From: an uncultured Litoreibacter sp. | Lineage (GTDB): Bacteria; Pseudomonadota; Alphaproteobacteria; Rhodobacterales; Rhodobacteraceae | Direction: 5' to 3' | Length of the DNA: 64,000 bases | NCBI GenBank assembly: GCA_947501685.1 | Contig: CANMWQ010000007.1 | Coordinates: 1 to 64,000, forward strand | Shown: piece after piece, positions 32,084 through 51,430 of the stretch | How positions within the stretch are numbered: the first letter of the stretch is position 1 | How the letters are laid out: every line of letters begins with the position of its first letter | Translations under genes and position numbers: made by a program | The notes under the pieces: generated by a model | The model's input: the letters and a program-made list of their open reading frames with translations, nothing else | Told to the model about the DNA's origin: nothing | Database searches by the model: none

Positions 32084-32179
32084 ATCGCTTCTCCTTTGCC
32101 GGAAGCACCCCCGAAGCGAGATAGGGTGAACACGGCGTTTCTTAATGTTGATTCCGTGGATATGGAGGTCCACCGGGGG

Positions 32180-32208
32180 TGTTTAGTGGGGAATACCGCT
32201 TGGCGCAA
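32180..32208 (-). promoter_or_regulatory. Weak candidate promoter for rplO-secY segment
   Basis: On the minus strand TTGCGC (32203-32208), a 17-nt spacer, then TAAACA (32180-32185), about 97 nt before rplO. The matches are partial. It is offered because the insertion and terminator at the rpmD end leave this segment without its ancestral promoter. Confidence 0.3.
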
Positions 32209-32306
32209 GGCTTTGTCTGAACGGCACGTTTTGGGACATTTTGGGACAAAATTTTTGGGCCCATTCCCCAAAATGGGACAAAATATTTTGGCAGCTTTGG
32301 GGGGCG

Positions 32307-32359
32307 TTTTGTACAAAATGGGGTAACTTGGAAGCGGCCAAAACCCATTTTGTACAAAA
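32307..32359. repeat. 53-bp palindrome-ended element, copy 1
   Basis: Both ends are TTTTGTACAAAA (32307-32318 and 32348-32359). The reverse complement aligns with 48167-48219 in the rplB/rplW insertion, sharing the ends, AAATGGGTT, TGGCC and TTACCCC. Confidence 0.65.
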
Positions 32360-32388
32360 GTTCGTGGTTAATTTTGTGTGACCAAGGA

Positions 32389-32515
32389 GGGCCGCGCCTG
32401 ACCTTGGGGAGGCGCTCAGACCCAGATATTGGGCGCGCCCTGCCCATCATTGAGACGGTGTTCTATTTGAAACGTTGCAAACGCGCCTTCCCGGGGGGAA
32501 GGTCAGGCGCGGCCC
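32389..32515. repeat. 17-bp perfect inverted repeat pair
   Basis: GGGCCGCGCCTGACCTT at 32389-32405 and its exact complement at 32499-32515, separated by 93 bp, lying 30 bp upstream of the inserted 253-aa gene. They could be ends of a small element or a large hairpin in its leader. Confidence 0.65.
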
Positions 32516-32545
32516 GGCGATGCCGGGCAAAGAGGAAAATCAAAA

Positions 32546-33307
32546 TTGAAATACAGTCAGTATCTACAAAACACTGCCTTTGGAGCTCTGGTCGGCTCAA
32601 TTGCAACTTTCTCTCTATGCTGGATTTTTGGTGCCGAGCTCACCAATGATCTAACGAAGCTCTACACCTTCGTGGTGGCTGCGGTGCTCTCTCTTTTTGC
32701 GGCCAGCCTCACTTTGCTAGGCGTACTGGCAGGAATCGAAAACCAGAACGAGCTCGAAAAGAAACGAAATCGTCGAAAATTGCTCGCTGCAAAAGCAGTC
32801 TTACCCACCGCATTATCGACGATGTGCGAAATCTGCGAGAACGGGATGAGGTCATCTGAGCAGCTTCAAAGTGACGAACAAGGCCTTGAGTTCAGGTTAA
32901 GCTCTATTCATCAACTCCGTGTTGCCCCAGAGTTAGCGGGAATTTTCCAGGACATCATCGAACTAACTGAAGACGATGCAGTAGCGTCTCGCCTTTCGTT
33001 ATTGCTTAGAGAACACCAAATCTTCTTGGCCAGATGGAAGTCTGAATTCGGCCCGGAGGCAAAGGAGATAATGAAACATGAAAGCGACGCACGGCAACGA
33101 ACAGTATCTTGGGCTTATCTATACGCAGTCACTGTTTCGATGTTTGCCTACGCTCGCGGTGATGCTCCGAGCCTTCAAGATCACAACTCAACAGAATTAA
33201 TCACCTCCGCCCTAAATGCAGGGTTGGGCGGACTAGCATACATGGAAAAAGACTTTAGTGAAGAAATAGGGCTTTACAGCCGTACATTTGAGCGCCGCAC
33301 AAAGTAA
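32546..33307 (+). CDS. Unknown two-helix membrane protein inserted in spc operon
   Basis: 253 residues starting at TTG 32546 (AGAGGA 9 nt upstream; the next ATG is about 90 codons in). Two membrane helices (about 10-30 and 40-63) are followed by a cytoplasmic domain of 190 residues, predicted mostly helical, with many charged residues. I recognise no domain. It lies head-on to the ribosomal genes between rpmD and rplO and is visibly more AT-rich than its neighbours, suggesting acquisition. It ends at a strong hairpin shared with rpmD. Function unknown. Confidence 0.8.
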   Translation: MKYSQYLQNTAFGALVGSIATFSLCWIFGAELTNDLTKLYTFVVAAVLSLFAASLTLLGVLAGIENQNELEKKRNRRKLLAAKAVLPTALSTMCEICENGMRSSEQLQSDEQGLEFRLSSIHQLRVAPELAGIFQDIIELTEDDAVASRLSLLLREHQIFLARWKSEFGPEAKEIMKHESDARQRTVSWAYLYAVTVSMFAYARGDAPSLQDHNSTELITSALNAGLGGLAYMEKDFSEEIGLYSRTFERRTK

Positions 33308-33337
33308 GAAGCGCCCCGCGTTTCCGCGAGGCGCTTC
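33308..33337. terminator. Hairpin between inserted gene and rpmD
   Basis: GAAGCGCC-CGCG-TTTC-CGCG-GGCGCTTC, directly after the TAA of the inserted gene and downstream of rpmD on the other strand. It probably ends transcription from both sides. Confidence 0.65.
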
Positions 33338-33355
33338 AAATTATTTCACAACGAG

Positions 33356-33375
33356 ATTCCCGCTTTCGCGGGAAT
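33356..33375. terminator. Second hairpin downstream of rpmD
   Basis: ATTCCCGCTTTCGCGGGAAT is a perfect 8-bp stem with a 4-nt loop, 11 nt beyond the rpmD stop. There is no clear T run, so it may be a 3'-end stabiliser or a small dispersed palindrome. Confidence 0.45.
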
Positions 33376-33386
33376 GATGGTCAATC

Positions 33387-33575
33387 TCAGCCCTTCTCCT
33401 CAATAATCTCGACCATATGGGAGATCGAGTTCACCATGCCGCGCACGGAAGGGGTGTCTTCCAGCTCGCGGGTGCGGTTCATTTTGTTCAGGCCGAGGCC
33501 CACCAGTGTCGCGCGCTGTTTGGCGGGGCGACGGATGGGGGAGCCGATTTGTTTGACGACGATGGTTTTTGCCAT
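33387..33575 (-). CDS. rpmD: 50S ribosomal protein L30
   Basis: 62 residues, [20 protein letters not shown] with [24 protein letters not shown], the standard L30. It is now the last gene of its transcription segment because of the insertion before rplO. It starts 3 nt after rpsE. Confidence 0.97.
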
Positions 33576-33578
33576 GAT

Positions 33579-34157
33579 TTAGGCCTCCGCGTTTTCTGCT
33601 GCGGCCTCAGCGGCAGGCGCTTCGTCGCCCGTGCGCAGAATATCCGCAACTTTTTTGCCACGACGCTGTGCGATCATGCGTGGCGAGGACTCGTTGGTCA
33701 GGCCATTCAAGGTTGCACGGATCATGTTGTAAGGGTTGGACGAGCCGATGGATTTGGCAACGACGTCCTGCACACCCAGCATCTCGAACACGGCGCGCAT
33801 CGGGCCACCAGCGATGATGCCGGTACCTTGTGGCGCTGTGCGCATGACGACTTTACCAGCGCCGTGACGGCCCTTGGTGTCGTGGTGCAGCGTGCGGCCT
33901 TCGCGCAGGGGCACGCGGACCATCTGGCGTTTGGCCTGCTCGGTGGCTTTGCGGATGGCCTCTGGGACCTCTTTCGCCTTGCCTTTGCCGAAGCCAACGC
34001 GGCCCTTTTGGTCGCCTACGACGACGAGGGCTGCGAAGCCAAAGCGCTTACCGCCTTTGACGGTTTTGGAGACGCGGTTGATTGCAACCAGACGATCCTG
34101 AAATTCCGGAGTTTCGTCGCGATCGCGGCGGCCCCGATTTCCTTGTTCTCTTGCCAT
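33579..34157 (-). CDS. rpsE: 30S ribosomal protein S5
   Basis: 192 residues from ATG 34157 (AAGGA upstream). The double-stranded RNA-binding half includes [30 protein letters not shown], and the C-terminal half includes [19 protein letters not shown]. An Ala/Glu-rich tail ([14 protein letters not shown]) extends beyond the usual end. S5 is involved in decoding fidelity. Confidence 0.97.
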
Positions 34158-34234
34158 GTTGGCAGTCCTTTTTGTCAGTCGCCTGAAAGGCGTTTGTCTC
34201 AACCGCAGTGAGCTTGTGCCCCCCGGTCATCGAA

Positions 34235-34291
34235 GGTGGGCAAGTATTGCCCACCCTACAGTGTCGGGTAGGGTGGGCAAAACTGCCCACC
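34235..34291. repeat. Paired GGTGGGCAA palindromes between rpsE and rplR
   Basis: GGTGGGCAA-GTA-TTGCCCACC (34235-34255) followed by CTACA, then an inverted copy GTAGGGTGGGCA-AAAC-TGCCCACC ending at 34291. The same unit recurs near 43190 and 46051. It is a REP-like dispersed repeat inside an otherwise continuous ribosomal operon. Confidence 0.75.
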
Positions 34292-34298
34292 GCCACCT

Positions 34299-34658
34299 CT
34301 AGATCTTCAGACCGCCTTCGCGGGCTGCTTCGGCCAAGGCCTTCACCTTGCCGTGGAACAGGAAGCCGCCCCGGTCGAAATAGGCTTCGGTCACGCCGGC
34401 CTTTTTCGCACGTTTCGCGATTTCCGCGCCGACTTTCGTCGCCGCATCCACGTTGTTTTTGCCAACTAACCCCAAGCCCTTTTCGAGCGTGGAGGCCGAC
34501 GCAACAGTGTTGCCATTCACATCGTCGATCAGCTGGACCGAGATGTTCTTGGACGAGCGATGCACCGACAGGCGCATGCGCCCGGCATTCACCTTGCGAA
34601 GTTTGTTCCGAACGCGCAGGCGGCGTTTGATGAACAGATCACGTTTGCTATTGGCCAT
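34299..34658 (-). CDS. rplR: 50S ribosomal protein L18
   Basis: 119 residues: [40 protein letters not shown] and the C-terminal [28 protein letters not shown]18 binds 5S rRNA with L5. It overlaps rplF by one base and is separated from rpsE by a repeat pair. Confidence 0.97.
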
Positions 34659-35191
34659 TACTTCTTCTTCCCTTCTTTGCGGAAGATGTACTCATCTTTG
34701 TACTTGATGCCCTTGCCTTTATAAGGCTCCGGCTTGCGCCAAGCACGGATTTCGGCGGCCACCTGACCCACCTGCTGCTCGTCATTGCCTTCGACGATGA
34801 TCTCGGTCTGCTTTGGCGCAGAAACGGTCACACCCTCGGGCACTTCATAGACAACATCATGGCTGAGGCCGAGGTTCAGCTTCAGGTTGCGGCCTTCCAT
34901 CGCGGCACGGTAGCCCACGCCGTTGATCTCAAGCTCTTTCTTGAAACCATCGGTGACGCCGATCACCAGATTGCCAATCCGCGTGCGGGACATGCCCCAT
35001 TGCTGACGGGCGCGCTTGGATTTGCCACGCGGCTCAACGGTGACGACATTGCCGTCCACCTTGATTGTGACATCATCCGTAGCCGTGAAGCTGCGCTGGC
35101 CTTTGGGGCCTTTGACCGACACCGTCTGGCCGGAGACCGAGGCCTCCACGCCGGAGGGCAGGTCGACTGGTCTTTTACCAATACGAGACAT
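34658..35191 (-). CDS. rplF: 50S ribosomal protein L6
   Basis: 177 residues from ATG 35191 ([21 protein letters not shown]), with [13 protein letters not shown] and [22 protein letters not shown] at the end. It occupies the GTPase-associated side of the 50S subunit. An upstream in-frame ATG (35257) lies inside rpsH and is not used by the family. Confidence 0.97.
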
Positions 35192-35201
35192 TTTGCGCTC
35201 C

Positions 35202-35594
35202 TTAGAAGACGGTGCAGAGCACTTCGCCGCCGATATTCTGGGCGCGTGCATTTGCATCAGACATCACGCCTTTTGGCGTGCTGACAATCGACACACCCAG
35301 ACCCTGACGGACGGTTGGGATGTCTTTGGCACCAACGTAAACGCGGCGACCGGGCTTGGAGACCCGCTTCACTTCGCGAATAACAGGCGTGCCTTCGTAA
35401 TATTTCAGCTCGATGTTCAAAGCCGGGTGACCGTCTTTGCCCGTGGTGGCCTCGTAGCCACGAATGTAGCCCTCATCCGCCAACACATCGAGAACCCATG
35501 CGCGCAGCTTGGAGGCTGGCGTTTCCACGGTGGCCTTGCCCCGCAGCTGAGAGTTCCGGATACGGGTGAGCATATCTGCGATAGGATCGTTCAT
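35202..35594 (-). CDS. rpsH: 30S ribosomal protein S8
   Basis: 130 residues: [41 protein letters not shown] and [21 protein letters not shown]8 binds the central domain of 16S rRNA and, in enterobacteria, represses the spc operon by binding its mRNA near rplE. No such mimic was identified here. Confidence 0.97.
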
Positions 35595-35606
35595 TGATAT
35601 ACCTCC

Positions 35607-35912
35607 TTACCAGCTTGACTTAACCATGCCGGGGATTTGGCCCGAGGAGCCAAGATCCCGCAGCGCGATCCGGGAAATCTTCAGCTTACGGTAGTAAGCG
35701 TGAGGACGGCCGGTCAGCTGGCAACGGTTGTGAAGACGGACAGCGGAGGAGTTGCGGGGCAACTCGGCCAGTTTCAGACGCGCCTTGAAGCGCTCTTCCA
35801 TTGGTTTTTCGCGGTCGTTTGCAATTGCCAGAAGGGCAGCACGCTTGGCGGCGTATTTCTTCACCAGGCGCTCCCGCTTCTTCTCGCGTTCGATCATGCT
35901 TTTCTTAGCCAT
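35607..35912 (-). CDS. rpsN: 30S ribosomal protein S14 (zinc-free type)
   Basis: 101 residues, [20 protein letters not shown] with [26 protein letters not shown]. The CxxC pairs of the zinc form are absent, as in most proteobacteria. It lies between rplE and rpsH as usual. Confidence 0.97.
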
Positions 35913-35933
35913 GTCTTTTCTCCTATCCCGCGA

Positions 35934-36497
35934 TCAGCTGTTGAAGGGCATGTTGAAGGCTTTCAACAGGCTCTTGGCTTCAGCGTCGGTGGGTGCGGTG
36001 GTGCAGATGATGATGTCCATGCCCCAGGCTTCATCGATTTTATCAAAATCGATTTCCGGGAACACGATATGCTCTTTCAGGCCCATGGCGTAGTTGCCGC
36101 GGCCGTCGAAAGACTTGCCCGACACGCCGCGGAAGTCGCGGATGCGGGGCATGGCAATCGTGATCAGACGATCAAGGAATTCATACATCTTCTCACCGCG
36201 CAGGGTGACCTTGGCGCCGACGGGCATTTCCTCACGCAGGCGGAAGCCCGCGATGGATTTCTTGGCCCGTGTGACCATGGCCTTCTGGCCGGAGATGGCG
36301 GTCAGATCCGCCGCAGCCGACAGAGGCTTCTTGCTGTCTTTGACAGCCGCCCGGCCTGCGCCGATGTTCAGCACGATCTTGTCGAGACGCGGGATCTGCA
36401 TGTCGTTCTTGTAGGAAAATTCTTCCTTCAACGCTTTGCGGATCGTGTCTGCGTAGACCGCCTTGAGGCGCGGGGTGTAATTTGCTTCATCCAACAT
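35934..36497 (-). CDS. rplE: 50S ribosomal protein L5
   Basis: 187 residues: [39 protein letters not shown] and [21 protein letters not shown]5 binds 5S rRNA and contacts P-site tRNA. The ATG shares a base with the rplX stop. Confidence 0.97.
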
Positions 36498-36802
36498 CAG
36501 ATCACGTCTCCTGTTGTCTTGGCGTAGCGCACCTTCTTGTCGCCATCCATTTTGAAGCCAACGCGGGTCGGCTTGCCCTTGGCATCCACCAGCGACAGGT
36601 TCGACAGCTGAATAGGCATGGCCTTAGGCTGGCGGCCGCCCTGGTCGGTCTGGCTTTGCTTGACGTGGCGGATCGCGATGTTGATCCCGTCCACAACGGC
36701 TTTGCCGGTCTTGGGGTCGACGGACTGAATTTTGCCCTTTTTGCCCTTGTCCTTGCCGGTCAGCACGATGACCTCGTCGCCGGATTTCAGTTTAGCAGCC
36801 AT
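36497..36802 (-). CDS. rplX: 50S ribosomal protein L24
   Basis: 101 residues with the KOW motif [20 protein letters not shown] at the N-terminus and [17 protein letters not shown]24 helps start 50S assembly. It begins one base after the rplN stop. Confidence 0.97.
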
Positions 36803-36803
36803 G

Positions 36804-37172
36804 TTACAGCACCTCCGGAGCGAGCGAGATGATCTTCATGAAGTTCTTGGCACGCAGCTCGCGGACCACGGGTCCGAAGATACGTGTGCCAATCGGCTCA
36901 CCGGTGTTGTTGAGGATAACAGCCGCGTTGCGGTCAAACCGAATGGCTGTGCCGTCTTCGCGACGGACCTCTTTGGACGTGCGAACAACGACGGCCTTGC
37001 GGACGTCGCCTTTTTTCACGCGGCCGCGTGGGATGGCTTCCTTCACCGACACGACAATAACGTCGCCGACGGATGCGTATTTACGCTTGGAGCCACCCAG
37101 AACCTTGATGCACTGCACACGGCGCGCGCCGCTATTGTCAGCCACATCAAGATTGGTCTGCATCTGGATCAT
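36804..37172 (-). CDS. rplN: 50S ribosomal protein L14
   Basis: 122 residues: [46 protein letters not shown] and [11 protein letters not shown], the standard protein at the subunit interface. It normally heads the spc operon. Here it continues from rpsQ with a 63-bp gap. Confidence 0.98.
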
Positions 37173-37235
37173 GTGATGTCTCCCGACCTTTGGGGACGCG
37201 TCCTAACAGCGCCCCACGGTTTCGTGGTATTGGGG

Positions 37236-37469
37236 TTAAGCCTCGACGAGGACTTCCCAACGTTTGGTTTTCGATTTCGGCGCACATTCCTGAATGCGAA
37301 CCTGGTCGCCTACATTGAATGTGTTCTTCTCATCGTGAGCCCGGTACTTTTTGGACTTACGGATGGTCTTTTTCAGAACGGGGTGCGTGAAGCGACGCTC
37401 AACGGAAACCGTAACGGTTTGCGCGTTTTGGTTGCTGGTGACAGTGCCGGTCAGGATACGCTTAGGCAT
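37236..37469 (-). CDS. rpsQ: 30S ribosomal protein S17
   Basis: 77 residues: [45 protein letters not shown] and [20 protein letters not shown]. It is a primary 16S rRNA 5'-domain binder. It starts 4 nt after rpmC. Confidence 0.97.
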
Positions 37470-37473
37470 ATTC

Positions 37474-37683
37474 TTAAGCCTCCGATTTGGCAGCGTCGGC
37501 TGCTTTTTCGTTCAGAATGGTTTTCACACGGGCCGCGTCACGTTTGACCGCGCGCATCCGCGCCGTGCTTTCAAGCTGGCCGGTGGCCTGCTGGAAGCGC
37601 AGGTTGAAAGCCTCTTTTTTCAGGGTGGCCAGCTCTTCATTGAGCTGATCTGCGGTTTTTTCACGCAGTTCGCTGGCGTTCAT
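37474..37683 (-). CDS. rpmC: 50S ribosomal protein L29
   Basis: 69 residues from the second ATG (37683), matching the family opening [10 protein letters not shown] and leaving AAGGA about 8 nt upstream; ATG 37689 would sit too close. L29 lies at the tunnel exit and contributes to the SRP/trigger-factor docking site. It should directly follow rplP but is separated from it by about 5.6 kb of accessory DNA, so it now heads its own segment. Confidence 0.96.
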
Positions 37684-37990
37684 AGCCATGTTCCTTTTTC
37701 AAACACTGGAGGGCCGCTGTCCCGAACGAACGACGTCACCCTGATTCCAGTGGAGTGGGTGTAGAAGTGGTGGCTTTAGACCCCATAGGCTAGCAAAGCA
37801 AGGGCCACCCCGCATTTTCTTGGGGTCAGATGTGACGCCGCGCCCCGGGTCACGTGGCAAGTGGTCTGCATCCAGATACGCACCGGCACGATCACGCGGC
37901 GAGCGTATGTTTGGAACCACCTGTTTTTGCCATATTTCTGGACTATACCAGTGTACAATTCTCAGCATCGAAAGTAATACGGTTGAGAGA

Positions 37991-38671
37991 ATGGGATTAT
38001 TTGACAGGATAAAAAATCGACACGCTCAGGCACAGCTTGAGAAGGATATTACGCAAGCCATGCGTAATATGGGTCTGACCGACAAAGACGATGAGATGAA
38101 GCGCCCCGAGCCCATCGCTCTGCCAGACTTCAACCGGCAGGCATCCGGGCGCTTGCACGAACTGCTGTTCCCACCCGTACCTCAAATGATGTCTGAGATG
38201 ATCGAGCCTTACCACAGCAAGGAGCCGTTTCACTGGCAGCATTCTGGGCTCATGTATAATATCTCGGATCTCAAAGACCATTTGTGCACCCACCCCCACA
38301 AGGTACTCCGTGTGTTTTTAGAGCGCGTTGTCACAAGCTATTTCCCAGACACGCTATACCTAGAATTTGGGACCTATTTCAGCCTTCCGGGCAAACCTAA
38401 GGAATATAACGAGGCAGATGTTACTCAAATCTACGCACTATTTGCCTATGTGACCGGGCCGGACCTGCGTGCGGCGCATATAGCGTCGATACTAGACATC
38501 AGCGAAGGTATCGAAGACATTCGCCGCGACTACCAATCAGCAAAGCGCATTTTTGATGTCCAAGCCCCACAAGTGCACGCGTTCGAAACCGCTTTGAAAG
38601 AATGGGAGCGCAAGAATAAGCGCCCCAAAAAGCCAAAATGGCCAGATTACTTGACCAGCAATGAGACATAG
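37991..38671 (+). CDS. Unknown soluble protein in rpmC/rplP insertion
   Basis: 226 residues from ATG 37991 with GAGAG just upstream. No signal peptide or membrane segment is visible. It has an N-terminal Gln/Lys helix, an aromatic-rich middle (FHWQHSGLMYNISDLKDHL, FGTYFSLPGKPKEYNEADV) and a Lys-rich end (WERKNKRPKKPKWPDYLTSNET). I recognise no family. It lies head-on to the ribosomal genes, and the truncated oxygenase copy begins in its last codons. Confidence 0.7.
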   Translation: MGLFDRIKNRHAQAQLEKDITQAMRNMGLTDKDDEMKRPEPIALPDFNRQASGRLHELLFPPVPQMMSEMIEPYHSKEPFHWQHSGLMYNISDLKDHLCTHPHKVLRVFLERVVTSYFPDTLYLEFGTYFSLPGKPKEYNEADVTQIYALFAYVTGPDLRAAHIASILDISEGIEDIRRDYQSAKRIFDVQAPQVHAFETALKEWERKNKRPKKPKWPDYLTSNET

Positions 38672-39167
38672 CTTGCCAACCATCTCCTCCCTCTTCGTCA
38701 CCCGCCTCTACCAGTCCAAACTTGACGGCATCGACCCGGACGAGTTGGAGGCCTCTTGTTTCTCCATCGCCGAAGACGACGAGGCTGGGCAAGACTGGTG
38801 CGAGCGGGAGGGGTTTCCGGGCTATACCTCCTATGCCTCGCTGACCGACCTGCCGTGGCGGTTTCCGATCTTCAAGGACCTTGTGACGGCGCTCGATAAA
38901 CACGTCGCGGCTTTTGCCGAGGACGCGCAGTTTAACCTGGATGGGCGCGAATTGAAACTCGAAGACATCTGGATCAACATCCTGCCCGAGGGCGGCATCC
39001 ATACCAGCCATATCCATCCCCATTCCGTCGTCTCCGGCACGACATATGTGGCGATCCCGGCGGAGGGCGCGGCGATCAAGTTTGAAGACCCGCGCTCCCA
39101 GATGATGATGGCGGCCCCGGCCCGGCTGACGGGGGCCCGCGAGGAGATGCGGCAGTTGCTTTTGTGA
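38661..39167 (+). pseudogene. Truncated duplicate of 2OG-Fe(II) oxygenase gene
   Basis: The open frame of 168 residues is nearly identical to the intact gene at 41229-41837 from LFVTRLYQSKL through REEMRQ, then reads LLL and stops. Compared with the intact copy, 30 bp are missing just before the end and a further small change creates the stop. The second metal-site His, the Arg and the last strands are therefore lost. Its first eight codons differ from the intact copy and come from overlap with the preceding gene. A 9-bp hairpin (39156-39179) now spans the stop. Confidence 0.8.
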
Positions 39168-42668: not shown

Positions 42669-42696
42669 GCCCGGAATCGAGCCGAAGGCGTCCGGC
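42669..42696. repeat. Remnant of the 165-bp dispersed repeat
   Basis: GCCCGGAATCGAGCCGAAGG and the following bases match, with few changes, the complement of the right end of the repeat seen at 47362-47526 and 50643-50806. Only this edge is recognisable. Confidence 0.4.
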
Positions 42697-42710
42697 AAAG
42701 CAAAGCCTGA

Positions 42711-43103
42711 TCAAGAAAAAGCGCCGGCTGTAGTCAATGCAATTATCGCTGCGAAGCATAGTGCGAAGTGCGGAGCGGCATGTGAGAAGGTTGCGTTAGT
42801 AAACTGTTCCAAGAATAGTGCTTTCTCAACTTTGTTCATAGCCGCAGCTGTCCGTTCATAAGACCTAAACGCGTCGATCATGGCCCAAAGAACTAAAAGC
42901 CCCGCACCGCTCAATAACAAAAAGAAAACGCGTTGATCTACGAACGCTTTCTCGGCAGTCACAAGCGAAGAAGCAATAGCTGCGAAACTAACGTACGTGA
43001 ACGGCAACTGCCACATTCGGTTCCCGTGAACAGTGATGCGTGTTTGAAGAGTTTCTAGTTGCGTCCTGAGCGAGTCAGTAGAAGGTGTGTTTTCTAAATC
43101 CAT
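42711..43103 (-). CDS. Unknown small membrane protein
   Basis: 130 residues from ATG 43103 (the frame is open to TTG 43124). There are three predicted membrane helices. A helical N-terminal region (LRTQLETLQTRITVHGNRMW) and a charged loop (SYERTAAAMNKVEKALFLEQF) lie between. I recognise no family. It is on the same strand as the ribosomal genes and lies just beyond the rplP terminator. Confidence 0.6.
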   Translation of the reverse strand: MDLENTPSTDSLRTQLETLQTRITVHGNRMWQLPFTYVSFAAIASSLVTAEKAFVDQRVFFLLLSGAGLLVLWAMIDAFRSYERTAAAMNKVEKALFLEQFTNATFSHAAPHFALCFAAIIALTTAGAFS

Positions 43104-43147
43104 TGGATTGATATCGTAGTGCAAAGTCGCTTTTTCAATAGCGAAAA

Positions 43148-43179
43148 ATAACCCCCACCGTTTTCACGGAGGGGGTTAT
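43148..43179 (-). terminator. Intrinsic terminator after rplP
   Basis: ATAACCCCC(A)CCG and CGG(A)GGGGGTTAT form a 12-bp stem with a small loop. On the minus strand it is followed by TTTTT. It ends the rplB-rplP segment where rpmC would normally continue. Confidence 0.8.
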
Positions 43180-43319: not shown

Positions 43320-43733
43320 TTACCAATCTTCCCGAACGACAACGCGTGTCTTGATCGGCAGCTTCATCGCGGCCAGACGCAGGGCTTCGCGGGCGACGGC
43401 GTCGTTGACACCGTCGATCTCGAACATCATACGGCCTGGTTTGACTTTGCAGGCCCAGAAATCCACGGAGCCTTTACCTTTACCCATCCGAACTTCGATG
43501 GGCTTGGAGGTCACGGGCAGGTCCGGGAAGATCCGGATCCAGACGCGGCCTTGGCGCTTCATGTGGCGGGTCATCGCACGACGGGCGGCCTCGATCTGGC
43601 GCGCGGTGATGCGCTCCGGCTCGGTGGCTTTCAAACCGTAGGTGCCGAAGTTCAGGTCAGACCCGCCCTTCGCCAGACCCTTGATCCGGCCTTTGTGCAT
43701 TTTGCGGAATTTCGTCCGTTTTGGCTGTAGCAT
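43320..43733 (-). CDS. rplP: 50S ribosomal protein L16
   Basis: 137 residues: [62 protein letters not shown] and the KTRVV end. L16 organises the A-site region of the 50S subunit. It is last in its segment and is followed by a terminator instead of rpmC. Confidence 0.98.
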
Positions 43734-43746
43734 TTAAGTGTCCCCC

Positions 43747-44454
43747 TTAGCGACGACCGCCGGCACCGCGAGGTGCTGGGCCGTCTTGGAGTTCTTGTTG
43801 CTTACGGTCACGTGCCTGTGGATCGTGTTCCATGATCTCGCCTTTGAAGATCCAGGTCTTGATCCCGATGATGCCATAGGCGGTCATCGCTTCGACATGT
43901 GCGTAATCGATATCGGCACGCAGAGTGTGCAGGGGCACGCGGCCCTCGCGGTACCATTCGGTCCGAGCGATCTCCGCGCCGCCAAGACGACCTGCGAGGT
44001 TGACCCGGATACCCAAGGCCCCCATGCGCATAGCGTTTTGCACGGCACGTTTCATCGCACGACGGAACGAAACACGACGCTCCAGCTGTTGCGCGATGCT
44101 TTCGCCAACCAATGCGGCGTCCAGCTCGGGCTTGCGAACCTCAAGGATGTTGAGGTGCAGTTCCGAGTCCGTAAACGCAGACAGCTTCTTGCGCAGGCCT
44201 TCGATATCGGCGCCTTTTTTGCCGATGATCACGCCCGGACGCGCTGTGTGGATCGTGACGCGGCACTTTTTGTGCGGACGCTCGATGATCACACGGCTGA
44301 TGCCGGCTTGTTTGCACTCTTTGTTGATGAACTCGCGCATCCGGATGTCTTCCAGAAGCAGATCACCGAAATCGGCGGAGTTCGCGTACCAGCGGCTGTC
44401 CCAGGTGCGGTTGACCTGAAGGCGCATGCCGATCGGGTTTACTTTGTTACCCAT
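43747..44454 (-). CDS. rpsC: 30S ribosomal protein S3
   Basis: 235 residues: [24 protein letters not shown], a KH domain with [18 protein letters not shown], and the C-terminal domain with [22 protein letters not shown]3 lies at the mRNA entry with helicase function. It overlaps rplV by one base. Confidence 0.98.
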
Positions 44455-44834
44455 TATGCTTGCTCCTCAACTTGGCGCACCAGGATTGTCAGCTCGGAGA
44501 ACGGCTTGACGATTTTACCAAACCGGCCACGGGCCCGAGGGCGTCCGCGCTTCATGGTCAGGTTCTTGCCGACATAGGCTTCCGCCACGATCAGCTCGTC
44601 CACGTCGAGGTTGTGGTTGTTCTCGGCATTGGCGATGGCCGACTGAAGGCATTTCTTCACATCATCCGAGATGCGCTTTTTCGAAAACGTCAGGTCGGCC
44701 AAGGCACGGTCGACTTTCTTGCCACGAATAAGCTGAGCCACCAGGTTCAGTTTTTGCGGGGAAGTGCGAAGCATGCGCAGTTTTGCCATGGCCTCGTTAT
44801 CTGCCACGCGGCGGGGGTTCTTATCCTTGCCCAT
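44454..44834 (-). CDS. rplV: 50S ribosomal protein L22
   Basis: 126 residues. The tunnel hairpin region lies near [23 protein letters not shown], and [21 protein letters not shown] is conserved. Macrolide-resistance positions in the loop look unaltered in length. It starts 3 nt after rpsS. Confidence 0.97.
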
Positions 44835-44837
44835 GGC

Positions 44838-45116
44838 TTACTTCCTTTTCGCTTTTTTATCTGCGGCGTGACCGTAATAGGTCCGAGTTGGCGCATATTC
44901 ACCGAACTTCTGACCGATCATGTCTTCCGAGACGTTGACTGGGATATGTTTCTTGCCGTTATAGACGCCAAACGTCAGGCCCACGAATTGGGGCAGGATC
45001 GTCGAGCGGCGCGACCAGATTTTGATAACTTCGTTGCGCCCGGAGTCTTTGGACACTTCGGCCTTTTTCAACACATGCGCGTCGACAAAAGGACCTTTCC
45101 ATACTGAACGAGACAT
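44838..45116 (-). CDS. rpsS: 30S ribosomal protein S19
   Basis: 92 residues: [50 protein letters not shown] and [21 protein letters not shown]. It is a component of the 30S head contacting S13. It follows rplB by 3 nt. Confidence 0.98.
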
Positions 45117-45119
45117 ATT

Positions 45120-45962
45120 CTAACGCCCCTTCTTCTTGGCATGACGCGAACGCAGGATGAGCTTCGACGACGCCTTTTTCTTGTTACGGGTCTTGGCACC
45201 TTTGGTAGGCTTCCCCCAAGGGGTGACCGGGTGACGACCACCAGAGGTCCGGCCTTCACCACCACCATGCGGGTGGTCGATCGGGTTCATCACAACACCA
45301 CGCACAGACGGGCGGATGCCCTTATGCCGGTTGCGGCCCGCTTTACCGAAGTTCTGGTTCGAATTGTCCGGGTTCGACACGGCACCCACGGTGCACATGC
45401 ATTCCTGACGGACCAAGCGCAGCTCGCCCGAGGAGAGCCGGATTTGCGCGTAACCACCGTCACGGCCCACAAACTGAGCATAGGTCCCCGCCGCACGGGC
45501 GATCTGGCCGCCTTTGCCGGGCTTCAGCTCGATATTGTGGATGATTGTCCCGATAGGCAGGCCGGAGAAAGGCATCGCATTGCCCGGCTTCACATCGGCC
45601 TTGGCCGTAGAGATCACCTTGTCGCCAACGCCCAAACGCTGCGGCGCAAGGATATAGGCCTGCTCGCCATCTGCATATTGAATGAGCGCGATAAACGCGG
45701 TCCGGTTTGGGTCATATTCAATGCGTACAACGGTCGCTTCCACGTCCATTTTGTTGCGCTTGAAATCGACGATACGGTAAAGGCGTTTCGCGCCCCCACC
45801 CTTGCGACGCATCGTGATCCGCCCGGTATTGTTCCGTCCGCCATTCTTGGTCAAACCCTCAGTGAGGGCTTTGACCGGGCGGCCTTTCCAAAGTTCCGAA
45901 CGGTCGATCAGAACCAACCCACGTTGGCCTGGCGTCGTCGGCTTATACGACTTGAGTGCCAT
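45120..45962 (-). CDS. rplB: 50S ribosomal protein L2
   Basis: 280 residues: [54 protein letters not shown] and the peptidyl-transferase-proximal [19 protein letters not shown]2 is needed for peptide bond formation and subunit joining. rplW should lie immediately upstream. Instead 2.3 kb of inserted DNA intervenes, with a terminator-like hairpin at 46087-46108, so this segment probably has its own promoter. Confidence 0.98.
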
Positions 45963-46050
45963 GCTTTCTGTCTTCCGTTTTCAGTGGCAGGGACGTGTCC
46001 CAACCTATGTCTGTATAGGGCCCCTGAGGTCCCCGGCTTTTATTCGGCTC

Positions 46051-46075
46051 GGTGGGCAATCTTGCCCACCCTACG
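46051..46075. repeat. GGTGGGCAA palindrome upstream of rplB
   Basis: GGTGGGCAA-TC-TTGCCCACC then CTACG, the same unit as at 34235-34291. Confidence 0.7.
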
Positions 46076-46086
46076 AACAACAACAA

Positions 46087-46108
46087 AGCCCCAGACGAAT
46101 CTGGGGCT
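46087..46108 (-). terminator. Hairpin upstream of rplB, blocks leftward read-through
   Basis: AGCCCCAGA-CGAA-TCTGGGGCT is a perfect 9-bp stem with a tetraloop, followed by TTGTTGTT on the minus strand. It would separate rplB from leftward transcription through the insertion. Confidence 0.6.
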
Positions 46109-46277
46109 GAGCCGATGGGGGTGTGTAGGTTGAGGGTGGGTGCGGGTCAAGGCTGAAGAAGAACAAATCAGGGTGGCAACTCAACTTAATCTGGGTCAAT
46201 CTCGCAAAAGCGGATTTGGTAGGCAATGCAGCCACCTCTTCTGCGAAAGAAATTTTGGAATAAGTGCTAGTTAACCA

Positions 46278-47363
46278 ATGAACACAAGTAAGCTCAGAGA
46301 AATTATTCTTCGAATTATTGAAGTTGAAGAACAGTTACAGACGCAAGACAATCTGGAAGCACTGGACAACGCCTTGGCAAGCCTCGTTAGCCAACCTGGC
46401 AATACGGGATTCCAAGACGAAGTTTCAGATAGCTTGAGGCGATTTTCGGAGAGTATGACAGAATTCAAAGCGGCATTCTCACCACGTGATTTTGAGCGAG
46501 TTTGCGAACTTTACGAGCCAGCATTTTCTCAGGCTTTAGTAGAAGAGATAAACAAGTCGATTGCTGAAAATGCTCTCTCGCCAAATGTTGCCAGCGAAAA
46601 AGTCAAAGGTGCCCGTGGAGGCCGTGAAACTGCATTTGATGCAATCACTAACCTTCGAGATGCGTTCGATTTTTTCGAAATTGGTGACGATCTTATGGAG
46701 ATTGGAAGCGCATCTGTTGGCTTTCAAATACCAAGGACCCTTTTCGATAATGACCTAGATGGTTTGATAAGCGAGTTGTTGGACATAAAAAGGGTGATCC
46801 AGTTCTTTTCCGAGGTCTCTGTGGGCGAATACGTACCGCCCAAAGTGGGAAGTATCTCCACAACTGATCCGCTTTTTTTCTTTGAAATGTTGCCTTTAAC
46901 AGCAAAATATCTAGCTGGTTCTGTGACATGGGCGATTGGTGTTTGGTTTTCAGTTGAAAAAATTCGGAATATCCGCGCTCAAACAGCTCAGCTTCAGTCG
47001 TTTTCTGCCGAAGAAGTCCAAGAAATATTTGACAGCAAGATAAAGAAAGAAATCGATGCCGCGGTAGAAACAAAAGTAAACCAGTTGCTGGAACAAGGTA
47101 ACGCCAAAGACGCGCAAAAAGGCGAATTGGTCGGGCAGCTTTCTTGGGCGCTCAATGTCCTGCTTGCCAAAATTGAAAGAGGCATGACAGTTGAGTTGAA
47201 GATTGCACCTCCACCTCCCACAACTGACGGCGAAGAAAATGACGAAGAAGACGTCAATTCAGATGAGACCAACGAAGCGCTTATTGAGATACAATCTGAG
47301 CTGATTTTTCCCTCTGCTAATGAAAACCCAGTTATGGAAATACCAGAGTTCAAGGAGGATTAG
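46278..47363 (+). CDS. Unknown AT-rich gene inserted between rplW and rplB
   Basis: 361 residues from ATG 46278. Predicted mostly helical, with one likely membrane segment at about 205-224 (LPLTAKYLAGSVTWAIGVWF), a coiled-coil-like stretch (EEVQEIFDSKIKKEIDAAVETK) and a proline run followed by an acidic tail (PPPPTTDGEENDEEDVNSDE). I recognise no family. Codon use is clearly more AT-rich than the neighbouring ribosomal genes, indicating recent acquisition. It is head-on to rplB and followed within 1 bp by a 165-bp repeat element. Confidence 0.8.
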   Translation: MNTSKLREIILRIIEVEEQLQTQDNLEALDNALASLVSQPGNTGFQDEVSDSLRRFSESMTEFKAAFSPRDFERVCELYEPAFSQALVEEINKSIAENALSPNVASEKVKGARGGRETAFDAITNLRDAFDFFEIGDDLMEIGSASVGFQIPRTLFDNDLDGLISELLDIKRVIQFFSEVSVGEYVPPKVGSISTTDPLFFFEMLPLTAKYLAGSVTWAIGVWFSVEKIRNIRAQTAQLQSFSAEEVQEIFDSKIKKEIDAAVETKVNQLLEQGNAKDAQKGELVGQLSWALNVLLAKIERGMTVELKIAPPPPTTDGEENDEEDVNSDETNEALIEIQSELIFPSANENPVMEIPEFKED

Positions 47364-47526
47364 CCGGGCATCGCCGGACCGGGGGATGGCGATCCAAGGT
47401 AAGTTCAGTAGAGCTTTATCCCCGCCAAACACATCTTCCGTATCAGCGACGCGCCAAGACCAACCAAATCGCCAGCCCGTGGGGCCGGTCTGGCGATGCC
47501 CGGCGCCTTCGGCTTGATTCCGGGCT
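47362..47526. repeat. 165-bp inverted-repeat element, copy A
   Basis: It starts AGCCGGGCATCGCC and ends CGGCTTGATTCCGGGCT. Near each end is the arm GCCGGGCATCGCC(G/A)GACCG...GGCGAT in inverted orientation, enclosing about 80 bp with an AGCTTTAT core. The same organisation, ends and length recur at 50643-50806. It looks like a non-coding miniature mobile element or large structured repeat. Confidence 0.75.
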
Positions 47527-47767: not shown

Positions 47768-48137
47768 TCGCCACTACCGTATCAAGCTGGGCGACATTCT
47801 CGAAGCCCATGAGCAATCTCTGGAAGCCTTCGGAGGCCTGCCCGGCATCAGCAACCTCGACAATATCCTCAGCGCAATGGGCCGCCCCTATCATGGCTAC
47901 CACCTCAGAATTTACGCCAAGGCCGCAGCGCGGCTGCACGGGCTCGCCACATCTCACGGCTTTAACGACGCCAATAAGCGCACTGCGTGGCTGACCACAG
48001 AAGTTCTCATCGCCAATAGCGGCTTCGAGTTGACCCTTCTGGAGGACGACCGACTGGACGACATTGTCGTCGATGTTGTCACAGGCGACATGACCCAAGA
48101 CGCATTAGCCGCGTGGTTCAAAGCCCGCATCTCGTAA
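47748..48137 (+). CDS. Doc-type (Fic fold) toxin, no canonical start codon
   Basis: The frame reads HYRIKLGDILEAHEQSLEAFGGLPGISNLDNILSAMG... and keeps the Doc active-site motif HGFNDANKRTAW, almost identical to that of phage P1 Doc (HIFNDANKRTAL), a kinase of EF-Tu Thr382. P1 Doc alignment places the start near 47760-47778, overlapping the antitoxin stop. Between the in-frame TGA at 47745 and ATG 47877 there is no ATG, GTG or TTG. ATG 47877 would remove about 43 residues including helix 1. It therefore uses a rare start (ATC 47760 or CTG 47787), depends on frameshifting, or is inactive. Confidence 0.75.
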   Translation, partial: SGWPIGSRHYRIKLGDILEAHEQSLEAFGGLPGISNLDNILSAMGRPYHGYHLRIYAKAAARLHGLATSHGFNDANKRTAWLTTEVLIANSGFELTLLEDDRLDDIVVDVVTGDMTQDALAAWFKARIS

Positions 48138-48166: not shown

Positions 48167-48219
48167 TTTTGTACGAAATGGGTTCTGGCCCGCCAAAATT
48201 TACCCCAAAATGTACAAAA
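48167..48219. repeat. 53-bp palindrome-ended element, copy 2
   Basis: It begins TTTTGTACGAAATGGGTTCT and ends TGTACAAAA. It aligns with the reverse complement of 32307-32359. Its right end merges into the rplW terminator. Confidence 0.6.
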
Positions 48220-48250
48220 GCCCCGGCAACATGACGTTGGCCGGGGCTTT
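48217..48250 (-). terminator. Intrinsic terminator after rplW
   Basis: AAAGCCCCGGC pairs with GCCGGGGCTTT (11 bp), followed by TTTTG on the minus strand. It ends the rpsJ-rplC-rplD-rplW segment where rplB would normally follow. Confidence 0.8.
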
Positions 48251-48290
48251 CGCTCATTTTCTGTATGGCGGGATTCACCCCGCCGCCCGA

Positions 48291-48587
48291 TCAAAGACCA
48301 GTGCTCACGTCAATCGTGTTGCCCTCTTCGAGGGTCACATAGGCCTTCTTGACGTCCTTGCGCTTGCCAAGTTGGCCACGGAAGCGCTTGGATTTGCCCT
48401 TGGTGATCGTCGTGTTGACGGCCTTCACCTTGACGCCGAAGAGTGTTTCCACCGCTTCTTTGATCATCGGCTTGTTGGCCTCGATCGCCACTTCGAACAC
48501 AACCGCGTTGGCCTCGGAGGCCATGGTTGCTTTCTCGGTGATGATAGGCTTGCGGATCACGTCGTAATGTTCAGCTTTAGTGCTCAT
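48291..48587 (-). CDS. rplW: 50S ribosomal protein L23
   Basis: 98 residues: [45 protein letters not shown] and [24 protein letters not shown]23 is the main docking site for SRP and trigger factor. It overlaps rplD by 4 nt and is now terminal in its segment. Confidence 0.97.
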
Positions 48588-49204
48588 GACAGACGAGCCT
48601 CCAATGCTTCGAGACCGGCTTTGGTGATGACCAAAGTGTCGCGTTTCAGGATGTCGAACACGTTCGCGCCCATGGTGGGCAGGATGTCCAGACCGGCGAT
48701 GTTGCGCGCAGCTTGGGCGAAGTCAGCGTTCACCTCGGCGCCGTCGATGATCAGGGCGCGCTTCCAACCGAGCTCTTTGACCTGAGCGGCCAGAGCTTTG
48801 GTTTTTAGACCCTTGCCGTCGATATTGTCCAGGATCACCAGCTCGCCTGCATTCGCCTTGGCGGACAGCGCGTGCATCAGGCCCAGCTTGCGGACCTTCT
48901 TGGGCAGATCATGGCCATGGCTGCGAGGCGTCGGGCCTTTGTAAACACCACCACCGCGGAAGATCGGAGCAGACCGCGCGCCGTGGCGAGCGCCGCCGGT
49001 GCCTTTCTGGCGATAGATCTTCTTGGTGGAATAGTTCACTTCCGAGCGGGTCTTCACCTTATGGGTGCCGGCCTGCGCGTTGTTGCGCTGCCAACGGACC
49101 ACACGGTGCAGGATGTCCGCACGTGGCTCCAGGCCGAAGATGGCGTCAGGCAGCTCTACCGAGCCAGCCTTCTTGCCGTCGAGTTTGATGGCATCAGCTT
49201 TCAT
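48584..49204 (-). CDS. rplD: 50S ribosomal protein L4
   Basis: 206 residues from ATG 49204 (AAGGAG upstream): [28 protein letters not shown], the tunnel loop [36 protein letters not shown], and the C-terminal domain. In enterobacteria L4 autoregulates the S10 operon through its leader. No equivalent structure was identified. It overlaps the end of rplC. Confidence 0.97.
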
Positions 49205-50066
49205 CGGACTTGTCTCCTTCTGGGGCTGCATCTGTGTCAGCAGCATCCGCCTCGATGGAGGCTTCGGCTTCAGCCAATGCGGCAGCTTCTTGTGCGGCTT
49301 GCTCTTCGGCCAGACGCGCGGCTTCTGCTTCCGCCTCAGCGGCTGCGGCGGCTGCAGCTTCTTCAGCAGCTTTCTCGGCTTCTTTGGCAGCGGAGGCGAG
49401 ACCCGCCGGGAACAGCGTGTTCTCCGACAGCGGCTTTTTCACCGCGTCCTTGACCGTCACCCAGCCCCCTTTGGAGCCGGGAACAGCGCCTTTGATCATG
49501 ATCAGACCACGAGCCGTGTCGGTTTTGACGACCTGCAGGTTCTGCGTGGTGACACGGGCAGCGCCCATGTGACCGGCCATCTTCTTGCCTTTGAACACCT
49601 TGCCCGGATCCTGACACTGGCCCGTCGAGCCGTGCGAGCGGTGGGAGATCGACACACCGTGGGTCGCCCGCAGGCCCCCGAAGTTGTGACGCTTCATCGC
49701 ACCGGCAAAACCTTTACCGATCGAGGTGCCCGCCACGTCGACGAACTGGCCCTCAAAGTAATGCGCCGCGATCAGCTCTTCGCCGACCGGGATCAGGTTT
49801 TCTTCGTCAACGCGGAATTCCGCGATCTTGCGCTTGGGCTCTACCTTGGCGGCAGCAAAGTGACCGCGCATCGCCTTGGATGTGCGCTTCGCCTTGGCCG
49901 TACCGGCACCCAGCTGAACGGCCACATAGCCGTCCTTTTCGATTGTGCGGTTGGCAACAACCTCAAGTTTGTCGAGTTGAAGAACGGTCACAGGGATCTG
50001 CTTGCCGTCTTCCATGAAGAGGCGGGTCATGCCGACCTTCTTCGCAATTACACCGGAGCGCAACAT
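49194..50066 (-). CDS. rplC: 50S ribosomal protein L3 with long Ala/Glu tail
   Basis: 290 residues from ATG 50066 (AAGGAGGG upstream); L3 is usually about 210-240. The core [62 protein letters not shown] is normal. From about residue 228 an Ala/Glu-rich tail ([20 protein letters not shown]...GDKSDES) of about 60 residues follows, probably a helical or disordered extension. The tail codons run 11 nt into rplD. Confidence 0.97.
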
Positions 50067-50079
50067 AAGGTAGCCCTCC

Positions 50080-50391
50080 TTAAACTTTGATTTCGACGTC
50101 AACGCCGGCGGCCAGGTCGAGCTTCATCAGCGCGTCCACGGTCTGCGGTGTTGGGTCAACGATATCCAGCAGACGCTTATGCGTGCGGATCTCGAACTGA
50201 TCCCGAGATTTCTTGTCCACATGTGGACCCCGCAGAACGGTGAATTTCTCGATCTTGTTGGGCAGCGGGATCGGGCCACGCACATCAGCGCCAGTGCGCT
50301 TTGCGGTGTTTACGATCTCTTGGGTAGAAGCATCCAGAACCCGGTAGTCAAACGCCTTCAGGCGGATGCGAATGTTTTGGCTTGCAGCCAT
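50080..50391 (-). CDS. rpsJ: 30S ribosomal protein S10
   Basis: 103 residues: [66 protein letters not shown]. It is a component of the 30S head and of NusB-NusE antitermination complexes. It heads the first S10 segment, 1.0 kb from tuf. Confidence 0.98.
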
Positions 50392-50862
50392 GACATGTCC
50401 CCTTGGATTGGGGTCTCAACGGATTGGAGGACAGGCGCTCATCGCAGGCCCTCGTCGCGTCTAATGGCGGAACATAAAGAGGGGCACGCTTGGCATGCCC
50501 CTGTTCCTTGGGGTGCGTATAGGGGGAGTCGGTTTGGGTGGCAAGGACCTTTCTGTATCAGTGCGCAAAGTTCGTTTGACGTAGGCAAATGAACAGCGGC
50601 ACTCCATAAATCTGCTGGGTGCCAGCAACCTCGCGCCACCTCAGCCGGGCGTCGCCAGACCGCGGGGTGGCGATCTGAAAGAGGTTCTAAAAAGCTTTAT
50701 GGTGGCCAAGTCATCGTCCATGCTTATGGCGCGCTAAAATCAACCAAATCGCCAGCCCTGTCGGGCGGTCTGGCGATGCCCGGCGCCTACGGCTTGATTC
50801 CGGGCTAGGGCTGAATGTCGGGTTAGAGCCCAGACCTACGTAATCTCTTTCTCAAGTCAGTG
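50392..50862. other. Leader/intergenic region upstream of rpsJ
   Basis: 471 bp without a gene. It contains the hairpin AGGGGCA...TGCCCCT (50480-50502), copy B of the 165-bp element (50643-50806) and presumably a rpsJ promoter, which I could not place. Confidence 0.5.
50643..50806. repeat. 165-bp inverted-repeat element, copy B
   Basis: It starts AGCCGGGCGTCGCC and ends CGGCTTGATTCCGGGCT, 164 bp. The ends, the internal AGCTTTAT and the right-hand block CAACCAAATCGCCAGCCC match copy A at 47362-47526; the centre has diverged. Confidence 0.75.
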
Positions 50863-51231
50863 CTAAGCGTCCGCTATCATTTGCTCATATTCGGCTCTTA
50901 CGTCTTCATCAACGACAACATCTTTATTGCCCCCATAAAGCCGATCACTCTGGTCTCTGCGTGGCCCCGATATCCAGAAATAGTCACCACTTTCTAAATT
51001 GAAGTAGTTGGATTTGAACCCACGCCCTTTCAAACTCTGGAAGCGCCAACCCTTGTAATAAAGGGTTTTCCCCGATTTAGAGAAGTAGAGCCTCCCAATT
51101 CTGGCCGCTCCCTCTAGTCCATCATCACCCTTGAACTCAATGTACATGATCCTTGACCGAGCCAATTTGTATTCTTTCGGGAGTGGCATTTTGCGATTAA
51201 GGCGCTCAAGCCAATTCTCTTCCTGCTCCAT
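50863..51231 (-). CDS. Small conserved protein of unknown function between tuf and rpsJ
   Basis: 122 residues. The core ARSRIMYIEFKGDDGLEGAARIGRLYFSKSGKTLYYKGWRFQSLKGRGFKSNYFNLESGDYFWISGPRRDQ..DRLYGG looks like a compact beta-rich domain. From memory, short proteins with this RIMYIE...YWISGP pattern are widespread and sometimes mislabelled as deoxyxylulose-phosphate synthase, with which they share no catalytic region. Nothing suggests a ribosomal role. It lies on the operon strand and could be co-transcribed with rpsJ, but a terminator separates it from tuf. Confidence 0.72.
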   Translation of the reverse strand: MEQEENWLERLNRKMPLPKEYKLARSRIMYIEFKGDDGLEGAARIGRLYFSKSGKTLYYKGWRFQSLKGRGFKSNYFNLESGDYFWISGPRRDQSDRLYGGNKDVVVDEDVRAEYEQMIADA

Positions 51232-51325
51232 CGAAACATCCCCAAATTAAGTATCTTCAATCGTCCTAGCATGCATCGATGAATGTCAGCAAAGTCCCGC
51301 ATAGCGGAAATTCAATAAAAGAAAA

Positions 51326-51352
51326 AAAGGCCGCCCGGTTGGGGCGGCCTTT
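51326..51352 (-). terminator. Intrinsic terminator after tuf
   Basis: AAAGGCCGCCC and GGGCGGCCTTT, 11-bp stem, followed by a T7 run on the minus strand. It ends the str operon. Confidence 0.88.
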
Positions 51353-51430
51353 TCTATGTCTCAACCGAAGTGCTGCTCTCGGTCACTTTCTGCGAAAGTA
51401 ACCTGCCGCACACTGGGTCCGTTTCTCAAA

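Follow-up and report, generated by a model that had tools for sequence, protein, structure and literature searches.

Fixed joints probably divide the S10-spc-alpha ribosomal protein cluster of Rhodobacterales into four separately regulated modules

Introduction

The order of genes in the S10-spc-alpha ribosomal protein cluster is a textbook example of conservation, and what keeps the cluster together is still an open question. Here we ask how the cluster can be interrupted repeatedly, as it is in a 64,000-nucleotide (nt) stretch of DNA from an uncultured Litoreibacter sp. of the order Rhodobacterales (contig CANMWQ010000007.1; G000:C7:1-64000), which we call the window and which belongs to a genome of 3.32 Mb in 16 contigs. 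An initial annotation, made from the letters alone, had described ribosomal protein genes in ancestral order with accessory DNA at four places, three of them containing genes on the opposite strand. Translation and tblastn bear this out: from tuf to secY all of the ribosomal protein genes lie on the minus strand in the ancestral order, with gaps of 1039 nt at tuf/rpsJ, 2328 nt at rplW/rplB, 5630 nt at rplP/rpmC and 1303 nt at rpmD/rplO, and the last three of these gaps hold plus-strand genes. None of the remaining joints between rpsJ and secY exceeds 150 nt by tblastn, the joints of rplF having been measured in the order-wide survey described below, where both are at most 15 nt in 86 loci.

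Our comparison of this locus with its relatives suggests that S10-spc-alpha has been re-divided into four modules: A (rpsJ to rplW), B (rplB to rplP), C (rpmC to rpmD) and D (rplO onward). Ahead of B, C and D, each joint would begin with the intrinsic terminator of the preceding module; next would come a slot for cargo, then a promoter, and last a structured leader RNA controlling the module that follows. A candidate leader stands before module A too. It is likely, judging from the comparative sequence evidence presented here, that the four modules are transcribed and regulated separately and that their joints are insulated, so that foreign genes are tolerated there. Because each module would be terminated, started and regulated on its own, an insertion into a slot should cost little in either orientation, such that unrelated genes could come and go and whole modules could leave.

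Results

The same joints are open across the order

Module A of the window (rpsJ-rplC-rplD-rplW, 48291-50391) opens with rpsJ (50080-50391) and closes with rplW (48291-48587), and module B (rplB-rpsS-rplV-rpsC-rplP, 43320-45962) runs from rplB (45120-45962) to rplP (43320-43733). Module C (33387-37689) begins at rpmC (37474-37689) and ends at rpmD (33387-33575), while rplO (31616-32083) opens module D (rplO-secY-adk-rpsM through rpoA). These minus-strand genes were placed by translation and tblastn, except that rplP was placed by translation and homology and rplO by tblastn.

To survey other genomes, we used two sets of loci. A scan for relatives of L16 retained 80 named loci, made up of ingroup loci and 37 comparison loci, with Rhizobiales, Caulobacteraceae and Hyphomonadaceae among their titles. 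An even sampling of the order, in which 195 of 196 genomes matched, contributed 100 loci that together with the window make 101 loci from 80 genera. A joint was counted as open when its gap was at least 300 nt, and denominators are the loci in which both partner genes were found within range.

In the order sample, rplW/rplB was open in 52 of 84 loci, rplP/rpmC in 68 of 84 and rpmD/rplO in 58 of 73. Openings were rarer at tuf/rpsJ (10/57), fusA/tuf (2/25) and rplO/secY (1/80), and none of the 17 other joints from rpsJ to rplO, each scored in 79-91 loci, was open anywhere except rpsQ/rplN in a single locus (1/86). The named ingroup loci gave the same picture (25/35, 25/32 and 11/16 for rplW/rplB, rplP/rpmC and rpmD/rplO, respectively), while in the comparison loci no open joint was found at these three positions (0/36, 0/36 and 0/34). 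Occupancy differs even within the genus of the window, one genome of which has 92 nt at rplW/rplB as against the 2328 nt seen here. The interruptions are thus real, as the initial annotation had supposed; they are, however, the rule for the order, at fixed positions, and not peculiar to the window genome. We rejected an assembly artefact at the junctions, which is very unlikely because another genome (G002) carries the locus on a 4.19 Mb contig with all three joints open, at 2101, 2347 and 1172 nt. Ruegeria arenilitoris (L002) is open at the three joints too, with 3154, 2080 and 2084 nt. An apparent change of gene order in one locus (L019) proved to be an artefact of start calling.

Terminator-like and promoter-like signals gather at the open joints

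Scanning the first 150 nt downstream of each gene, we found terminator-like hairpins after rplW in 65 of 83 loci, after rplP in 76 of 84, after rpmD in 66 of 73 and after tuf in 24 of 57. At control joints such hairpins were scarcer (rplO/secY, 13/80; rpsQ/rplN, 2/86; rplR/rpsE, 10/69), and letter-shuffled sequence is expected to yield 0.2-1.6 (1.0-1.6 for rplW, rplP and rpmD). In the window, hairpin scans place minus-strand candidates after tuf (51322-51353), rplW (48219-48248) and rpmD (33308-33337). The initial annotation had put terminators after rplW, rplP and rpmD; the hairpins after rplW and rpmD are indeed strong, as is that after tuf, while the one after rplP (43152-43172, minus strand) is weaker, lies about 150 nt downstream and goes uncounted in a stricter scan.

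Promoter-like sites of sigma-70 type were scored when they beat 95% of the shuffles of their own region (p<=0.05). They precede rpmC in 65 of 79 loci and rplO in 64 of 71, and rplB has one in 31 of its 44 testable loci, compared with 3 of 67 for rpsE, 6 of 86 for rplN and 22 of 80 for secY as controls. The window's own sites, all on the minus strand, were read from the sequence and belong to the class tested across loci: TTGACC-17-TACACA before rplB (46122-46150), TTGCTT-17-TAAAGC before rpmC (37773-37801) and TTGCGC-17-TAAACA before rplO (32180-32208). Taken together, the predicted terminators and promoters support separate transcription units, and by these predictions S10 and spc are not single units free of internal terminators and promoters. 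We expect the predicted signals to function as such in the cell.

Many loci, as judged by eye, also have a hairpin with a UUCG cap between the rplB promoter and the leader RNA of rplB, and T-rich sequence follows it. In the window this element lies at 46087-46108 on the minus strand (fold z -4.81 for 46085-46112), and it could be an attenuator. Close by, at 46050-46074, is one of two inverted copies of a palindromic repeat, GTAGGGTGGGC...GCCCACC, the other being at 34268-34292; other loci carry this repeat before rplB too.

Structured leaders precede the downstream modules

The leader of module B in the window is a member of the L2-Alphaproteobacteria ribosomal leader family RF03142 (45965-46034, minus strand; 51 bits against a gathering score of 37.8) and adjoins the start of rplB at 45962. 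Apart from a tRNA, it is the only element in the window that Rfam matches at gathering score. We identified two or three further candidate leader RNAs, on the minus strand directly upstream of rpmC (37690-37757; model R1) and of rplO (32084-32140; model R2) and, as a hairpin, upstream of rpsJ (50424-50462, core 50426-50458; CGACGAGGG...CCTCC). The rpmC and rplO elements, searched as 201-base stretches, gave 0 matches in 4227 Rfam families at E<=10, and the rpsJ element had no Rfam match at gathering score.

All three show strong covariation. For rpmC, 91 sequences have three helices in common, pairing reaches 96.6% of cells, both sides vary in 9 of 13 pairs, and the covariation score is 0.374 compared with 0.165 in shuffled alignments and at most 0.154 in slid versions. 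The rplO leader has two helices in 83 sequences (95.4% paired; covariation 0.364 vs 0.109 shuffled), and the rpsJ hairpin is 97.8% paired over 64 sequences (0.375 vs 0.131 shuffled). In these alignments, the rpmC set (A2) takes 91 of 97 sequences, omitting L019, L024, L026, L040, L084 and L108, while 18 further loci, several of which bear the motif, failed the search expression; three rows of alignment A1 (L126, L143 and L159) were trimmed by hand; and one of the 64 rows of the rpsJ alignment (A5), L085, was swapped for a row of the window set by hand. A covariation-backed structure and a consistent position 5' of a ribosomal protein gene, as befits a leader, are found for the rpmC, rplO and rpsJ elements, for rpsJ in the 64 of 109 loci that the search expression matched.

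The rplO leader is also predicted to form a pseudoknot between its hairpin loop and a stretch adjacent to the start codon that includes the last G of the Shine-Dalgarno sequence. In the window, the loop at 32113-32119 would pair with 32085-32091, beside the start codon. All 97 ingroup loci have the pairing (6-8 bp, with one at 5 bp), as against 1 of 34 others with at least 6 bp. We propose that each leader represses its module upon binding a protein encoded in that module, and that the rplO leader would do so through the pseudoknot beside the ribosome-binding site.

Conserved hairpins also occur in sampled loci before rplN (36804-37172; CGAAACCCTGGGG...CCCCAAAGGTCGGGAG) and secY (30145-31509), at joints that almost never bear cargo; it is possible that these are further regulatory RNAs.

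The covariance model R1 matches 83 of the 86 loci that have rpmC, and R2 all 80 that have rplO (100 sources, L181 lying outside both scans), most of these locus sequences having also built the models; each is found in 0 of the 37 comparison loci. When 144 genomes of the class were searched, R1 matched 4, R2 matched 8 and RF03142 matched 3, kinship being shown for few of the non-matching genomes; the window's own genome (G000) and two marked as the same family (G001 and G002) were matched by all three models. In a held-out test on 14 genomes with displaced modules, 13 of them outside its alignment, R1 matched immediately ahead of rpmC in all 14.

At rplP/rpmC, the rpmC leader is present at 68 of 68 broken joints and at 13 of 16 short ones, so that a leader without cargo is common and cargo without a leader was not seen. 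Separate regulation therefore appears to have come first and to have made insertion tolerable; that is, the regulatory split probably preceded the insertions.

Cargo is randomly oriented and shows high turnover

From 188 gaps of at least 300 nt we collected 333 open reading frames (ORFs) with coding-like composition. At the three joints, 163 of these run in the same direction as the ribosomal protein genes and 167 oppose them, such that cargo orientation is random there; at tuf/rpsJ, 3 run in the same direction and 0 are opposed. Most cargo is private, with 198 of 228 clusters limited to a single locus. The recurrent exception is TIGR02466, a putative 2OG-Fe(II) oxygenase found in 54 loci by ORF and 4 more by tblastn, which amounts to 58 of 68 broken rplP/rpmC joints, with 28 of the ORF copies opposed and 27 in the same direction. 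Its relatives in the PDB include none with a known function, only two uncharacterised structures, 3bvc and 2rg4. This resident oxygenase might act on a ribosomal protein, for example the product of its neighbour, L16.

Among cargo proteins of at least 120 amino acids (aa) that passed the composition cut-off, 164 in number, 110 were drawn at random and 109 searched against Pfam. The 25 of 82 families listed include transporters, ion channels, enzymes, signalling proteins and VWA domains; those 25 contain neither a transposase nor an integrase.

The cargo of the window reflects this variety. At rplW/rplB, two plus-strand features oppose the ribosomal protein genes: a gene of unknown family (46278-47363) and a Fic/Doc toxin-like fragment (47877-48137), which matches its family profiles from positions 51 and 59 onward, so that the N-terminal part is missing in this frame. 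A longer Fic/Doc relative of 121 aa occurs at the rplP/rpmC joint of another locus (L009). The window's own rplP/rpmC gap contains one minus-strand ORF (42711-43124), in the direction of the ribosomal protein genes and without a family match, followed on the plus strand by a gene (41907-42578) without a family match whose homologues occupy this joint in L009 and L013, the full-length TIGR02466 oxygenase (41229-41837), an acyltransferase of family PF01757 (39552-40670), a truncated second TIGR02466 copy (38661-39167) matching the full copy at 95.1% over 470 nt, and an ORF with nothing above the family cut-off (37820-38671). A single opposed gene, likewise with nothing above the cut-off, occupies rpmD/rplO (32546-33307, plus strand). 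A dispersed 77-nt repeat matches the genome at 23 places, in full or in part, and three of these places lie in the gaps described here (47450-47526, 50730-50806 and 42669-42697).

Further upstream in the window, a family-less ORF (52634-53167) overlaps the end of fusA and parts it from tuf (gap 557 nt), and an EamA-family gene (56441-57316) sits between rpoC and rpsL.

Modules separate at the joints that open elsewhere

In many loci the ribosomal protein genes start or stop at the limit of a module, past which lie kilobases of other DNA. In one genome of the window's genus (G096), rplO lies 3.9 kb after rplP, the eleven genes from rpmC to rpmD are absent between them, and the rpmC leader is 0.52 Mb distant from that site; in another of this genus (G059), the rpmC leader is on a separate contig. 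Six further genomes (G088, G099, G048, G073, G006 and G100) have rplO and the rpmC leader on different contigs, with at least 15.9 kb upstream of rplO in which no ribosomal protein gene was found, and in G037 about 74 kb separate rplW from rplP. The genomes with dispersed modules are mostly drafts.

Two loci that begin at rplW (L090, from genome G043, and L029) at first seemed to be exceptions. The rplW sequences before rplB in these loci are remnants, 5'-truncated in L090 and split between two frames in L029, and a full-length rplW is present elsewhere in the same genome. Such remnants, along with the truncated TIGR02466 copy of the window, are the expected leftovers of duplicative homologous recombination, a mechanism that we infer. 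Cargo may likewise be exchanged by homologous recombination through the flanking genes. From their positions in these sequences, modules separate physically at the same joints that open elsewhere.

Discussion

The initial annotation held that the transcription units are really split, and that repeated insertion points either to a hotspot or to a relaxed need for one transcript. The split, and in part the relaxed need, gain support from terminators and promoters predicted across loci. The hotspot holds in the sense that most cargo is private to one locus and that the same joint can be short or filled within a genus; targeting by mobile elements finds no support in the 25 of 82 cargo families listed. 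What that annotation did not contain is the span across the order, the fixed joints, the structured leaders that open the downstream modules and the separation of modules at the same joints.

A number of observations count against a division into four modules, or narrow it. The tuf/rpsJ joint is not specific to the order, because it measures at least 300 nt in 3 of 28 comparison loci. Four metagenome contigs titled Rhodobacteraceae (L039, L047, L048 and L052) were assigned to the comparison set by their closed joints together with an L16 identity of only 78-81%, which makes the contrast between the sets partly circular, the pseudoknot count included. The secY gene has a promoter-like site in the 22 of 80 loci given above even though the rplO/secY joint is almost always free of cargo, and the rplB promoter was testable in 44 loci, 40 others being too short or without a hairpin anchor. 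A general sigma-70 scan of the window returned 5 sites against 8.6 in shuffles and matched none of the three promoter positions; the promoter claim therefore depends on the position-specific comparison. As for the leaders, their single-sequence folds in the window are unremarkable (z of -1.34 for rpmC, 0.20 for rplO and -1.01 for rpsJ), and it is therefore covariation that carries the claim. Evidence for the pseudoknot is thinner than for the other helices because, at a covariation of 0.165 vs 0.056 shuffled, slid versions reach 0.144; its pieces were also picked by best pairing, which favours that helix. The rpsJ search expression went unmatched in 45 of 109 loci; by eye, several of these have the motif and some lack it. 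The rpmC leader is missing from three loci with short gaps (L118, L150 and L166, at 124, 101 and 116 nt) and, by eye, from L036. Weak matches occur outside the order (R1 in 1 genome, R2 in 5), none of them near ribosomal protein genes, and there are weak extra matches within the set, a second one for R1 in G089 and one for R2 in L167. Finally, a search for mimicry of 16S or 23S rRNA by R1 or R2 found none, the best score, 10.3 bits, lying outside the 16S gene.

We weighed these points alongside other explanations. The genomes of this group might simply be loose, with many conserved operons interrupted and the ribosomal cluster one case among them, without special punctuation. The nuo operons of the group contain extra ORFs, and the window offers the insertions at fusA/tuf and rpoC/rpsL. 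Yet the other internal joints are closed in nearly all of the 79-91 loci scored for each, and it is at the open joints that terminators, promoters and leaders gather; we regard this account as unlikely. Alternatively, the joints could be targets of mobile elements or of site-specific integration, as the high turnover of cargo and the dispersed 77-nt repeat might suggest; but the 25 of 82 cargo families listed include no transposase or integrase, and modules also move whole. Mobile elements are unsupported as the sole cause, and this possibility strikes us as very improbable.

It might also be that one long transcript persists, with only minor promoter-like sites and with hairpins that serve in processing or stability. 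Some relatives do have short joints (e.g., 101-130 nt) and intact order. Opposed cargo is nevertheless as common as same-direction cargo at the three joints, and modules can lie as far apart as in G096, which leaves a single transcript with scarcely any likelihood. Division into separately controlled modules is the reading that we prefer. A bolder version would be that the order swapped the classical feedback of S10 and spc for four leader-RNA circuits, one per module and each responsive to a protein encoded there, and that the cluster was thereby free to break, fill with foreign genes and scatter; we put this forward as a tentative idea, open to considerable doubt.

The order provides a natural experiment over the 80 sampled genera, in which the joints can be seen closed, short with a leader and promoter, filled, or dispersed. 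This makes it testable whether such clusters owe their cohesion to regulatory wiring more than to shared assembly or position, and the order has culturable marine and phototrophic members.

In Escherichia coli, the S10 and spc operons are under feedback control by L4 and S8 through RNA sites. The arrangement proposed here is alike in that ribosomal protein operons would be controlled by feedback at RNA sites; it differs in its limits, which are rplW|rplB, rplP|rpmC and rpmD|rplO, and not the rpsQ|rplN and rpmJ|rpsM limits of E. coli.

Leaders of ribosomal protein operons are well known, and RF03142 itself is a published L2 leader candidate (Eckert and Weinberg 2020, PMC7247131), listed in a table there with rplB, rpsS, rplV and rpsC as regulated genes and its motif rated '?'. 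The rplB element of the window is a member of that family. The parts of that text available to us tie the leader neither to a broken cluster nor to cargo, and the rpmC, rplO and rpsJ leaders of this order belong to other modules. The main text of a 2010 survey of structured RNAs (PMC2864571), as far as it was available, mentions neither rpsJ nor rplO. Among the matches listed in the open-licence literature, judged by titles and the starts of abstracts, there was no report of an order-wide split or of rpmC, rplO or rpsJ leaders, and we found no published case in which several leaders re-partition the cluster into insulated modules.

The closest parallel that we found is a study of cluster insertions and disconnections in other classes (PMC8046335), which, in the portions seen, describes genes between operons followed by full disconnection in many species, and whose author proposes relaxed selection for synteny. 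The likeness lies in genes being inserted at a point at which disconnection later occurs. In those portions, its examples fall between operons (rpoBC/str and str/S10) or at rplL. The joints described here, by contrast, lie inside the S10 and spc operons as defined in E. coli, recur across the order, and come with a predicted terminator, promoter and leader and with cargo of random orientation.

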